Made by a program: the position numbers and the translations under genes
In this document: positions 2,828-58,324 of the stretch, one piece after another
How the letters are laid out: each line of letters begins with the position of its first letter
How positions within the stretch are numbered: position 1 is the first letter of the stretch
The notes under the pieces: generated by a model
The model's input: only the letters and a program-made list of their open reading frames with translations
What the model was told of the DNA's origin: nothing
The model's database searches: none
Source of the DNA: Pyrinomonadaceae bacterium
GTDB lineage: Bacteria; Acidobacteriota; Blastocatellia; Pyrinomonadales; Pyrinomonadaceae
Assembly: GCA_026129865.1 (NCBI GenBank)
Contig: JAHCHG010000009.1
Location: forward strand, 64,501-128,500
Length of the DNA: 64,000 nucleotides
Reading direction: 5' to 3'

Positions 2828-3508
2828 ATGAGGATCTTACTTATTGAAGATGAGGAAGGATTGATCCTGACGTTGACGGACCGATTACGAAGTGAGGGTT
2901 TCGATGTGAGATCCGCTTCGGACGGCGCTGCCGGGCTGGAAATTGCTTTGAGCGAATCGTTCGATCTGATCGTTTTAGACGTAATGCTTCCGAAAAAGAA
3001 CGGGTTCGACGTTTGCCGCGATCTTCGTAAAAACGCGGTTGAAACGCCGATCTTGATGCTGACGGCGAAAGGCGAAACATTTGATAAGGTGCTCGGCTTA
3101 AAACTTGGTGCGGACGATTATTTGACCAAACCGTTCGAAATTGCCGAACTGCTTGCCAGAGTTGAAGCATTGATTCGCCGGACGGCGAACACGGTTCAAA
3201 ACCTTAACGGATCGTTCAAATTTGGAAATGTAGCGATAGATTTTCGCCGTGCCGAAGTTCTTCGCGAAAATAAGCCGGTCGAACTTTCCGCGCTTGAATT
3301 TAAGCTTCTTCAATATCTGATCGAACATCGCGGCGATGTCTTAAAACGCGACGAACTTCTCGACGAAGTTTGGGGATACGACGCGATGCCGTCCACGCGA
3401 ACGGTCGATGTTCACATTGCCTGGCTTCGGCAAAAGCTGGAGGACAATCCGAAATTCCCCAAATTTATTCAGACTGTTCATGGGCTTGGCTACAAATTTT
3501 CAGCATAA
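2828..3508 (+). CDS. OmpR/PhoB-family response regulator
   Basis: This 226-residue DNA-binding response regulator is the partner of the kinase just upstream. The receiver domain (about 1-115) has the acidic pair at Glu7-Asp8, phosphoacceptor Asp51 in LIVLDVMLP, Thr79 in LMLTAK and the conserved Lys101 in LTKPF. The C-terminal winged-helix domain (about 125-226) carries the typical ELSALEFKLLQYLIEHRGDV and TVDVHIAWLRQKLE segments. A strong intrinsic terminator follows directly after the stop codon, closing the two-gene operon. Paired GTAAA boxes upstream of the operon are plausible binding sites. Confidence 0.95.
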   Translation: MRILLIEDEEGLILTLTDRLRSEGFDVRSASDGAAGLEIALSESFDLIVLDVMLPKKNGFDVCRDLRKNAVETPILMLTAKGETFDKVLGLKLGADDYLTKPFEIAELLARVEALIRRTANTVQNLNGSFKFGNVAIDFRRAEVLRENKPVELSALEFKLLQYLIEHRGDVLKRDELLDEVWGYDAMPSTRTVDVHIAWLRQKLEDNPKFPKFIQTVHGLGYKFSA

Positions 3509-16722: not shown

Positions 16723-16732
16723 AACGGAAAGA

Positions 16733-16988
16733 GGCTGTCTGAAAAGTCCTTAAAGTCCCCAACGGGGACAGGTTTAATAACGCAGGGTGTAGCGAATGAA
16801 AATGAGCGACACCCGAAGTCTGATTGTGAACACGTTGCGACGCTGAAAGTTCCGCACGATCAACGATTTATATCCGACTCCTTCAGAGTCGGAATGTAGG
16901 ATTCAAACAATCGCGGGGTGTCGCTTCGCTTTACCCCACGCTATTAAATTTATCGCTTTCAGCGAATTTAAGGACTTTTCAGACATCC
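16733..16988. mobile_element. Non-coding 256-bp element with 22-bp terminal inverted repeats (MITE-like)
   Basis: The left end (16733-16754, GGCTGTCTGAAAAGTCCTTA...) matches the reverse complement of the right end (16967-16988) at 21 of 22 positions. The interior holds nested hairpins: GTCCCC/GGGGAC, GGGTGT/ACACCC, CCGACTC/GAGTCGG and CGCTGAAAG/CTTTCAGCG. TTTAATAACGC-type sequence also recurs inverted near both ends, so the whole is an imperfect palindrome. There is no ORF or transposase and no obvious target duplication. It fits a miniature inverted-repeat element or a REPIN-like unit mobilised in trans. Confidence 0.75.
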
Positions 16989-17010
16989 TTATTTTGTTGA
17001 TTTAGTTTTC

Positions 17011-39384: not shown

Positions 39385-39969
39385 ATGGCAATAAAAACCG
39401 CAGGGATACGAACAAATAAAACGACCGAGATACGGATTGAGAATCAATCGACTCTGGAAATGCCGAAAAATTCGGAAGAGACGATCCAAAAGATAATTTC
39501 TTTTCTGCCGATCGAACATTTACGCGGAATGGAAAAGATCCGGCTGGTAGATTTCATCAAGCCGCCGCAGATGAAAAATATGTCGACGCCGGTAACCGGC
39601 GATCTGCCGGGGCTTTATCATCCGCGTGTCGGTAACCAGTCGGCTTGGATGGAAGTCTCGCTCGGCGCGCTTCTTCAGCCGACGGAAGGATTTGCAAAGC
39701 GTTGGATGGCAAAGAGCTCATTTAAAAGTAACCTTGCGGGCATAATCTTTTCGCTTGTCGGTCAGCATTACTATTTGACGCTTCGTCATTCGGTGAAAAA
39801 ACAGAGTTTAGAACCGCAGATCCGGCAATATGCCCAGAAAAATTTGAAGGAATGGGGCGAAAAACAAGCCGAGAACTCGCGCCGCGCCAAGTTTTTCAAA
39901 CCGTTTCGTCCATACCTCGAGCGCTGGGCGAAATGGCTGAACAAAAAAGCAGCGGCTTCGAAGAAATGA
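39385..39969 (+). CDS. Uncharacterised protein
   Basis: This product of about 194 residues matches no family I recognise. It has no signal peptide. It contains FLPIEHLRGMEKIRLVDFIK, a weakly hydrophobic stretch (NLAGIIFSLVGQHYYLTLRH) and a strongly basic C-terminal third (RRAKFFKPFRPYLERWAKWL then NKKAAASKK). ATG 39385 is preferred to the TTG at 39340. Its stop codon overlaps, as ATGA, the ATG of a short ORF through the 9-bp array that begins at the same point. The array directly downstream may therefore lie in its transcript. Confidence 0.7.
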   Translation: MAIKTAGIRTNKTTEIRIENQSTLEMPKNSEETIQKIISFLPIEHLRGMEKIRLVDFIKPPQMKNMSTPVTGDLPGLYHPRVGNQSAWMEVSLGALLQPTEGFAKRWMAKSSFKSNLAGIIFSLVGQHYYLTLRHSVKKQSLEPQIRQYAQKNLKEWGEKQAENSRRAKFFKPFRPYLERWAKWLNKKAAASKK

Positions 39970-40130
39970 GTCTAGCGAGTCTAGCGAGTCTAGCGAGTCT
40001 AGCGAGTCTAGCGAGTCTAGCGAGTCTAGCGAGCCAAGCGAGTCTAGCGAGTCTAGTAAGTCTTGCAAGTCTTGCAAGTCTTGTTAGTCTTGTAAGTCTA
40101 AGGAGTCTCTTAAGGCTATTTTCTATTTAA
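39966..40130 (+). other. 54-codon ORF (Ser-Leu-Ala)n through the first 9-bp array
   Basis: Starting at the ATGA overlap with the upstream gene, frame 3 reads MSLASLASLASL and so on, degrading to SLVSLRSLLRLFSI before TAA at 40128. Because the unit is 9 bp, the translation is a perfect tripeptide repeat. There is no independent ribosome binding site. It may be only a by-product of the array, or a translationally coupled hydrophobic peptide. Confidence 0.25.
39969..40112 (+). repeat. 9-bp tandem array A: AGTCT plus 4 variable bases, 16 units
   Basis: Sixteen phased 9-bp units run from 39969 to 40112. The core AGTCT is kept in all but one (AGCCA at 40032). The 4-nt tail is AGCG in the first nine units, then drifts (AGTA, TGCA, TGCA, TGTT, TGTA, AAGG, CTTA). 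Array B, in inverted orientation, lies 40 bp downstream. The gradient from identical to divergent units suggests recent expansion at one end. Confidence 0.95.
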
Positions 40131-40424
40131 TTTTGTAAGCAGCGTCTCGCCGGACTGAATCGACCGGAAAGACTGGAAAGACTGGAAAGACTGGAAAGAC
40201 TCGAAAGACTCGAAAGACTCGCTAGACTCGCTAGACTCGCTAGACTAGAAAGACTCGATTTTGCCAAGCAGAAGGCAAGTTCCGAAGGGAAACAATATCT
40301 CCACCTGGACTTTGCGCAGCGCGAAAAGCTTTGCAAATTTTACGATGGTCAGGGTTTCGCGCTCCATATCGAAAAGGTGCGAAAACCTTATCATGTCAAC
40401 CGTTACCAGTGTGAACTAACTTAA
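40131..40424 (+). pseudogene. Start-less ORF containing array B, possible gene remnant
   Basis: In the same frame as the (SLA)n ORF, the stop at 40128-40130 is followed by 97 open codons to TAA at 40422. The first half is Leu-Arg repeats (ERLERL..., ARLARL...) made by array B. The second half is normal-looking protein (SSEGKQYLHLDFAQREKLCK, then YDGQGFALHIEKVRKPYHVN). No ATG, GTG or TTG is in frame before the repeat. This could be the 3' part of a gene invaded by the repeat, or part of a gene interrupted at 40128. It ends 8 nt before the ATP-grasp gene. Confidence 0.35.
40152..40259 (+). repeat. 9-bp tandem array B: inverted counterpart, 12 units
   Basis: Twelve phased 9-bp units with core AGACT, the reverse complement of AGTCT, run from 40152 to 40259. 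The first two are degenerate (GGACT, CGACC); tails are GGAA, CGAA, CGCT. The stretch 40215-40246 is the exact reverse complement of 32 nt in array A (for example 39969-40000), so the two arrays could fold into a long hairpin in RNA or single-stranded DNA. Confidence 0.93.
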
Positions 40425-40432
40425 TTAAAATT

Positions 40433-41788
40433 ATGCTAAAAAAAGCCGTCGAATATTACAATGAATTGCTTTCGGACTTTGACCTTGCCGAACGTTCGCG
40501 GTTGAACCTAGATATCGGTTTGGAAGACGCGAAATTGATCTTCGGCGGTCGCCGTCTGACGCCGTATCTTCGACCGCATTTTGTGACGGAAGACGATTGG
40601 GCAATGGTTACAAAGAACTGCGAAATAGTTTGGGGCGCACTGCAAAAGGTCAAAGAAGCGGCGATCGGAAACGACGAGATCTTTGACGAGCTCGGCATAA
40701 CAGACATCGAACGCAAACTCGTTGCGATCGAGCCCGGATATAAGCAGGTTTCGCCGACGGCGCGGCTCGATTCGTTTTTGACAGAGGACGCATATTCTTA
40801 TGTGGAACTTAACGGCGAAAGCCCGGCGGGTATTGCTTATGCAGATTCCGCAACGAAGATCTTTATGGATCTTCCGGTAATGCGTAAATTTCGCGAGCGA
40901 TATGACGTGCGCGGGTTCGAAGGTCGCCCGAAGCTTTTGCGCGTTTTGCTTGACTGTTATCGCGAATATCTCGGGCACGAACCGGAAAAGAAACCGTTGA
41001 TTGCGATCGTCGATCTAAAAGATCTGCCGACTCAAAAGGAGTTCGAGCTTTTCCGCGATTATTTCGAATCGGAAGGTTATCCGGCGATCATTTGCTCGCC
41101 TGACGAGTTGGAGTTTTCGGACGGAGAACTGAAATATCAGGACAAAAAGATCGACATCGTTTATCGACGATTGCTTGTCAATGAATATCTGCCGATCCTA
41201 AAAGAAAATCCGGCGCTTTTCGACGCTTACAAAGCGGGGTCGATTTGTATGGCGAACAGTTTCCGCGCAAAATTGGTTCATAAGAAAGCGATCTTCGCGG
41301 TTCTGACTAACGAAAAATATCAGCATTTATTCGACGAAACCGAACGCAGCGCAATTACGGCTCATATTCCCTGGACACGGAAGTTCCGCGATGAACGGAC
41401 AAAATATTACAAAGACGACATTGATCTGGTCGAATGGACGAAGATGAGCCAGAGCAAGCTGGTTTTGAAACCGAACGACGATTACGGCGGGCAGGGCATC
41501 TATATCGGTTGGGCATCGACGATCGAAGAATGGAGCGACGCGATCGAGATGGCGCTGAAAAACGGCGATTATCTCGTTCAGGAACGCGTGAAAACAGCGC
41601 GCGAAGAATTTCCTATGATCGACGATGTCGGCAATTGGCATATGATCGAACAACTTGTCGATCTCGATCCGCTGCTTTTCGACGGCAAGGTCGGTTCGGC
41701 TTTTACGCGATTGTCGTCGTCCGAACTCGCCAATGTTTCGAGCGGCGGCGGAATGGTTCCGACGTTTATCATTAGTGAAAAGAAATAG
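40433..41788 (+). CDS. Circularly permuted ATP-grasp / glutathionylspermidine synthase-like protein
   Basis: This 451-residue protein resembles the circularly permuted ATP-grasp group that includes glutathionylspermidine synthase and peptide-modifying ligases. Suggestive segments are RPHFVTEDDWAMV, YSYVELNGESPAGIAYADSA, DIVYRRLLVNEYLP, VLKPNDDYGGQGIYIGW (ATP-binding lysine and glycine loop), YLVQERVKTAREEFP and SGGGMVPTFIISE at the C-terminus. It probably joins an amino group to a carboxylate using ATP. No partner peptide or alpha-E gene is adjacent. It starts 8 nt after the start-less ORF carrying array B. Confidence 0.82.
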   Translation: MLKKAVEYYNELLSDFDLAERSRLNLDIGLEDAKLIFGGRRLTPYLRPHFVTEDDWAMVTKNCEIVWGALQKVKEAAIGNDEIFDELGITDIERKLVAIEPGYKQVSPTARLDSFLTEDAYSYVELNGESPAGIAYADSATKIFMDLPVMRKFRERYDVRGFEGRPKLLRVLLDCYREYLGHEPEKKPLIAIVDLKDLPTQKEFELFRDYFESEGYPAIICSPDELEFSDGELKYQDKKIDIVYRRLLVNEYLPILKENPALFDAYKAGSICMANSFRAKLVHKKAIFAVLTNEKYQHLFDETERSAITAHIPWTRKFRDERTKYYKDDIDLVEWTKMSQSKLVLKPNDDYGGQGIYIGWASTIEEWSDAIEMALKNGDYLVQERVKTAREEFPMIDDVGNWHMIEQLVDLDPLLFDGKVGSAFTRLSSSELANVSSGGGMVPTFIISEKK

Positions 41789-58181: not shown

Positions 58182-58324
58182 GTCAGAGTTACGGCTTCAG
58201 CCGTGCCCAGTCAGAGTAACGGCTTCAGCCGTGACCGGTCAGAGTTACGGCTTTAGCCGTGAACCGGTCAGAGTTACGGCTTTAGCCGTGAACCGGTCAG
58301 AGTAACGGCTTTAGCCGTGAAACT
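58182..58324 (+). repeat. Five tandem 28-29 bp units each holding the palindrome ACGGCTnnAGCCGT
   Basis: Units begin with GTCAGAGT at 58182, 58210, 58238, 58267 and 58296, giving periods of 28, 28, 29 and 29. Each carries a 14-bp hairpin ACGGCTTTAGCCGT or ACGGCTTCAGCCGT. They lie between the photolyase start and the phosphodiester glycosidase gene. The unit is contiguous with no spacers, so it is not CRISPR. The ACGGCT palindrome type is seen in Acidobacteriota as dispersed repeats (family knowledge, not checked here). Confidence 0.93.

Follow-up and report, generated by a model that had tools for sequence, protein, structure and literature searches.

The window, a stretch of 64,000 nucleotides from contig JAHCHG010000009.1 of a Pyrinomonadaceae bacterium (genome of 4.4 Mb in 21 contigs), carries a pair of inverted tandem arrays between two protein genes of the same direction. 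The coordinates of the arrays and of the features around them are collected in Table 1.

Table 1. Features at the array locus of the window
Feature	Position	Strand	Description
Upstream gene	39385..39969	+	194 aa without a Pfam family; the TGA stop reaches into the first unit of array A
Array A (5' arm)	39969..40112	+	16 units of AGTCTNNNN, 9-bp period
Spacer between arms	40113..40151	.	short, noncoding, without S23 gene
Array B (3' arm)	40152..40259	-	12 units of NNNNAGACT, the AGTCT unit reverse-complemented
GNAT acetyltransferase remnant	40258..40424	+	about 55 C-terminal codons; whole gene in relatives G057 and G050
Downstream co-directional gene	40433..41788	+	circularly permuted ATP-grasp-like, score below the Pfam gathering cut-off

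The TGA of the upstream gene borrows the first A of array A. Of 60 family genomes, 52 have an orthologue of this gene that stops at nearly the same residue, and the protein ends at about the same residue also in relatives that lack the array. The upstream gene and the ATP-grasp-like gene are adjacent in most relatives examined; between their orthologues lies an EVE-domain gene in most relatives and an intact GNAT gene in G057 and G050. A conserved protein without a Pfam family, with EVE or GNAT and ATP-grasp-like genes as neighbours, is an observation in its own right. The frame that follows array B lacks its own start codon and runs into the last ~55 codons of GNAT. Since only these codons remain, directly after the array, insertion at this locus was probably accompanied, or later followed, by a deletion. 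The corresponding gap of G008 carries a AGTCTAGGA pair, and that of G032, a genome of the same genus, measures 8 nt.

Array A retains a perfect AGTCT core in 15 of its 16 units, the exception being one degenerate unit (AGCCA near 40032), and array B shows a perfect AGACT in 10 of 12 (40170-40255), with both degenerate units at its left edge. A search for three consecutive AGTCTNNNN units gave 19 matches in the window, all at arrays A and B, and no match in 100 dinucleotide shuffles, thereby confirming the strictly 9-bp periodic inverted pair with constant core and variable tails described in the earlier note. The exact 32-nt reverse complement to array A was also confirmed in array B (40215-40246), and the strong hairpin potential proposed there was borne out by RNA folding, in which nucleotides 39966-40262 formed one long hairpin of -152 kcal/mol (z = -10.9). 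The 32-nt identity does not set this locus apart, because AGCG is the most frequent tail across the genome and because the arms of one pair match each other no better than they match the arms of other loci (permutation p = 0.07, own genome). When the window spacer was compared by eye with the spacers of other loci, no similarity was found. An Rfam search of the window detected tRNA only; the window contains no rRNA, and the element lies between two protein genes rather than in 23S rRNA helix 9, 25 or 45. Two further repeats lie elsewhere in the window, namely about five tandem copies of a 29-bp unit with the palindrome ACGGCTTTAGCCGT (58182-58321), which are of a different repeat type, and a MITE-like segment of ~290 bp between convergent ORFs with terminal inverted repeats of ~20 bp (GTCTGAAAAGTCCTTAA...; 16723-17010).

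About a dozen AGTCT pairs like that of the window were found in its genome, with the AGTCT array first and the AGACT array second, and a reversed control pattern gave no match. The arms of the noncoding pairs are ~5-135 bp apart and the pairs have no common spacer sequence; their arms share one AGTCT vocabulary over many unlinked sites. What the earlier note missed is that the array pair belongs to a dispersed intercistronic element, of which it is one copy, and that S23/IVP genes generally show the same architecture. The AGTCT/AGACT pattern also occurs in 14 of 97 relatives, spanning several genera and families of the class, where the AGTCT core is constant and the tails vary by genome. Core, phase and inverted pairing are thus kept in relatives across genera and families, and it was this conservation that the earlier note had named as the test of the feature. 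One pair of the window genome (L015, 2470-3216) encloses a gene for an S23/IVP four-helix-bundle protein (TIGR02436/PF05635). The window copy is related to the IVS/S23p elements without being a full member, because its spacer holds no S23p/IVP gene, whereas that of its sister does. The right array of this S23 element (3092-3216) runs in frame into rfbC, and gene callers may therefore append a spurious (DPQDSQDSI)n N-terminus to rfbC. S23 was present in 13 of the 14 AGTCT-array genomes and in 62 of the 83 other genomes, so that the presence of AGTCT arrays does not closely follow that of S23.

Most S23 genes sampled in ten array-bearing genomes were found to have close inverted arrays of short tandem units, mostly of 7 bp and sometimes of 8 or 9 bp. 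A scan of ~85,000 species genomes added 80 S23 loci from more than a dozen phyla; because a narrower S23 alignment served as the query in place of a broad one, this set leans towards one S23 subtype. At each locus the left 300 nt was compared with the right 300 nt after reverse-complementing the latter, the threshold being the 99th percentile of mismatched locus pairs and the control being blocks shifted by 650-900 nt (n=412). Matching inverted arms of 7-, 8- or 9-bp units were detected at 87 of 107 S23 loci, as against 3 of 412 shifted blocks (Fisher p 6e-75); arms above the threshold were absent from 20 of the 107. The repeat unit differs from locus to locus, both arms of a locus match, and units of mostly 7 or 8 bp keep no reading frame. 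In 78 of 85 decided loci G outnumbers C in the 5' arm (p 3e-16), and 42 of 87 5' arms contain recurrent AGT, as against 3 for its complement ACT. The arm unit also correlates with how similar the S23 proteins are (Mantel r 0.23, p 0.0005), those flanked by AGTCT arms having a similarity of 0.63 among themselves and 0.39 to others, a correlation to which common host ancestry may add.

Comparison of copies and sites showed that members of the family are dispersed and that S23 elements insert. In the relative G065, a noncoding core of 79 nt, which forms a hairpin of nested 7-bp repeats by itself, is present in at least 40 copies; of the 30 copies examined, 29 carry AGTCT arrays of 2-10 units outside the core and have unrelated flanks. 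At these loci (L114, L115, L199-L228) the 9-bp arrays enclose a nested inverted 7-bp array (CAGTGAC / GTCACTT). G079 contains two S23 elements that are 94.9% identical over precisely the stretch bounded by their arrays and that have unrelated flanks. Strict filled and empty sites were obtained for S23 members on plasmids, and for AGTCT copies the comparison is one of gap lengths with relatives. An S23 element (L261, L264) is present in cyanobacterial plasmids of Trichormus variabilis and Scytonema, and the same site is empty in Fremyella and Nostoc carneum, with flanks 97-98% identical; the empty site AAAAAGTAATTAAC corresponds to AAAAAGTAAT, the element and GTAATTAAC in the filled one. Between the two filled copies the 5' arm differs in length by two heptamers, and such changes in whole units, which the earlier note had anticipated, were seen both in related copies and in these orthologous insertions. 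At the same site Brasilonema carries a hairpin of the same heptamers without S23, that is, an S23-less derivative, and a Nostoc plasmid carries a truncated element copy. A second Nostoc plasmid site gave a filled/empty contrast as well, with insertion at a TAG stop codon. In these comparisons, one-step differences at a flank identity of 96-98%, the S23 elements sit exactly at the stop codon and end at their arrays. GTAAT was doubled at one plasmid site and the second site was ambiguous; as a general signal, target duplication was not significant in 26 G065 copies or in 86 S23 loci. The Riemerella S23 locus gave no empty site among plasmids, its four records being all identical, and S23 had no match in phage records.

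The elements occupy a characteristic position inside operons. In 83 of 103 loci both neighbours of S23 point the same way as S23 itself, and in 3 both point the opposite way; 70 of 86 S23 elements have a stop triplet in the outermost 18 nt of their left end, compared with 39% of control positions. Of 42 noncoding pairs, 39 are placed between co-directional genes (12 of 13 in the window genome, its S23 copy included, and 27 of 29 in G065), as against 49 of 73 background pairs (p 0.0014). The pairs of the window genome are mostly flush, filling the gap from stop to start, although single stop/start distances are approximate because the ORFs are mechanical calls. Their sites include, with genes named from their sequences, infB-rbfA, rpsQ-rplN, clpP-clpX, prfB-pgm and rfbA-rfbC. 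In some relatives the same gaps are short (2-5 nt for infB-rbfA, 9 nt for clpP-clpX and 15 nt for prfB-pgm), and in others the same junctions carry inverted arrays of a different 7-bp unit. Core orientation relative to genes was random in G065, as expected from the palindromic core. The co-directional bias and the absence from coding sequence could be explained by selection instead of targeting. A terminator function is disfavoured, because the elements lie inside essential operons whose downstream genes need transcription. Separately, the rpsQ-rplN gap of G046 and G053 (L240, L241) holds plain near-perfect hairpins without tandem units, which are perhaps decayed or ancestral forms.

We consider, with a probability of roughly three in four, that the window feature is a noncoding copy of a family of small mobile hairpin elements that settle between co-directional operon genes; the best reading of it is a noncoding element between cistrons that is related to the 23S rRNA IVS/S23 elements. 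According to this mechanism, an element would settle in the gap between the stop codon of one gene and the start codon of the next co-directional gene. Its ends are two inverted arrays of a short tandem unit (9 bp in the window, 7 or 8 bp elsewhere), so that its transcript would fold into a single long hairpin. Full-length members carry the S23/IVP four-helix-bundle gene in the loop, in the sense of the host operon, and many copies, that of the window included, consist of arms and a short spacer only. Of this picture, the architecture, the membership of the copies in one family within the genome, their dispersal and placement, the filled and empty sites of S23 members, the change of length by whole units and the S23-less derivatives at an S23 site are observed. 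The hairpin may let the operon tolerate the insertion, probably via RNase III processing as in the 23S rRNA IVS. The arms would stay matched through slippage and through exchange between arms or copies, as suggested by the arms of the window genome, which share one vocabulary and do not match their own partners best. S23, alone or with a host enzyme, may mobilize S23-less copies in trans; against this would count the window copy, which has no S23, and the unit of the G065 noncoding family (AGTCTTGGG), which differs from the units of the S23 loci fetched from G065.

The arrays could instead be immobile, intercistronic hairpins expanding in place by replication slippage and hairpin-templated copying and being tolerated only in gaps, in some of which S23 elements landed. 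In agreement with this, unit number varies by whole repeats, the unit sequence differs between genomes at one junction and also from gap to gap, the pairs of the window genome share no spacer, and the rpsQ-rplN hairpins of G046 and G053 contain no tandem repeats. Expansion in place accounts poorly for the many G065 copies of one core with arrays at both ends, for two G079 elements whose identity stops at the arrays, for the one-step plasmid differences and for a single AGTCT vocabulary being common to many unlinked places in one genome, and we regard it as unlikely. A family resembling REPIN/BIME, in which hairpin pairs are moved by RAYT (Y1, IS200-like) transposases, appears still more doubtful. 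Y1_Tnp proteins are common, with 13 in the window genome, and small intergenic palindromes with an asymmetric arm look like REP pairs. REP elements, however, have a fixed REP sequence and are linked to RAYT, whereas the ends here are variable tandem arrays; no Y1_Tnp was hit in G006, an assembly 89% complete with 22 array matches, Y1_Tnp is equally numerous in array-free genomes, and none lies between or beside the arrays inspected. Reverse transcriptase (PF00078) gave no hit in the window genome, G016 or G032, whose assemblies are slightly incomplete. Neither reverse transcriptase nor RAYT thus finds support as a necessary mover, and neither seems to be needed everywhere.

Finally, an expressed repeat protein or a regulatory repeat might be the reason why the 9-bp period is kept, the former in the shape of (SLA)n/(ERL)n peptides and the latter through phase variation affecting a downstream gene. 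The open frame pointed out in the earlier note does extend through both arrays, and the right array of L015 extends the rfbC frame N-terminally. An expressed (Ser-Leu-Ala)n or (Glu-Arg-Leu)n protein finds no support, since the frame after array B lacks a start codon and ends in a truncated GNAT, homologous elements mostly have 7-bp or 8-bp units that do not keep a frame, and the arrays are placed between genes; we consider such a role highly improbable.

Several known systems resemble the mobile hairpin-element family in part. Like the window element, the 23S rRNA IVS with S23p/IVP (PF05635) has complementary ends that form a long stem; in its full members the loop holds the S23p gene that the window copy lacks, and it resides in rRNA, whereas the window element lies between operon protein genes and ends in long tandem arrays. 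In Coxiella burnetii, heptameric repeats of strain-variable number lie beside S23p in the 23S rRNA IVS, and the rRNA IVS is cleaved by RNase III in vitro (PMC4990558). Cyanobacterial trnL intron P6b stems are built of heptamer repeats of the classes TDNGATT and NNTGAGT (PMC4476775), and the Nostoc hyp operon contains intergenic repeats (PMC2408588). These heptamers share with the window element short tandem units on both sides of a stem, whole-unit length change and intergenic copies, but neither study links them with S23 or with insertion between cistrons in other phyla, and the window period is 9. In Beggiatoaceae, intergenic gaps contain arrays of the heptamer TAACTGA, which often stop shortly before a start codon (PMC4679880); unlike the inverted pair of the window, these are described as direct and almost never as inverted pairs, and a link to S23 is unreported. 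REP/REPIN sequences (PMC3116915) are, like the window family, dispersed noncoding palindromic elements of intergenic space, from which the window family differs in its variable tandem arrays and in the array-bearing genome without RAYT. PF05635, for which solved structures exist (2gsc, 2rld), structurally resembles Avd of diversity-generating retroelements (PMC10053308); in contrast to such retroelements, the window genome shows no PF00078 reverse transcriptase and no template/variable repeat was seen. CRISPR arrays consist of repeats of ~23-50 bp separated by unique spacers, with cas genes, whereas the window units are 9-bp head-to-tail repeats without spacers, a structure that does not fit a CRISPR array. 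In the figure legend of an extensive CRISPR survey, 23S rRNA IVP is named as one of the proteins linked to CRISPR (PMC10910872), and part of such links might come from the short tandem arrays that surround S23 genes.

What was known already comprises the rRNA IVS with S23p, the Coxiella heptamers, the trnL intron stems, the Beggiatoaceae and Nostoc intergenic repeats and the Avd resemblance. In the open literature (preprints and most subscription journals lay outside this scope), we found no prior account joining S23 genes across phyla, matched inverted arrays, operon sites and noncoding families. A partial precedent would most likely be found in older cyanobacterial work on short tandem repeats and small dispersed repeats.

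The role and origin of the 23S rRNA IVS and S23p were called unclear more than 25 years after their discovery (PMC4990558). IVS/S23p now appear as one corner of a much larger family inside mRNA operons, of which strict empty sites show recent insertion, and the old guess that S23p serves mobility becomes directly testable. The family explains odd intergenic heptamer and nonamer arrays, warns against their annotation as proteins or CRISPR-like arrays, and indicates that essential operons such as rpsQ-rplN tolerate long hairpins. We propose, tentatively and at somewhat less than even odds, that S23/IVP proteins define a widespread class of mobile elements without a known transposase, recombinase or reverse transcriptase of their own, which would have locus-specific inverted arrays as ends, insert in sense at operon stop codons and spawn large noncoding families, that of the window included. 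If this is true, the 23S rRNA IVS would be a special case of the S23 element class, and the mechanism would be new, the substrate of S23 being the hairpin or array, either in RNA form or as single-stranded DNA.
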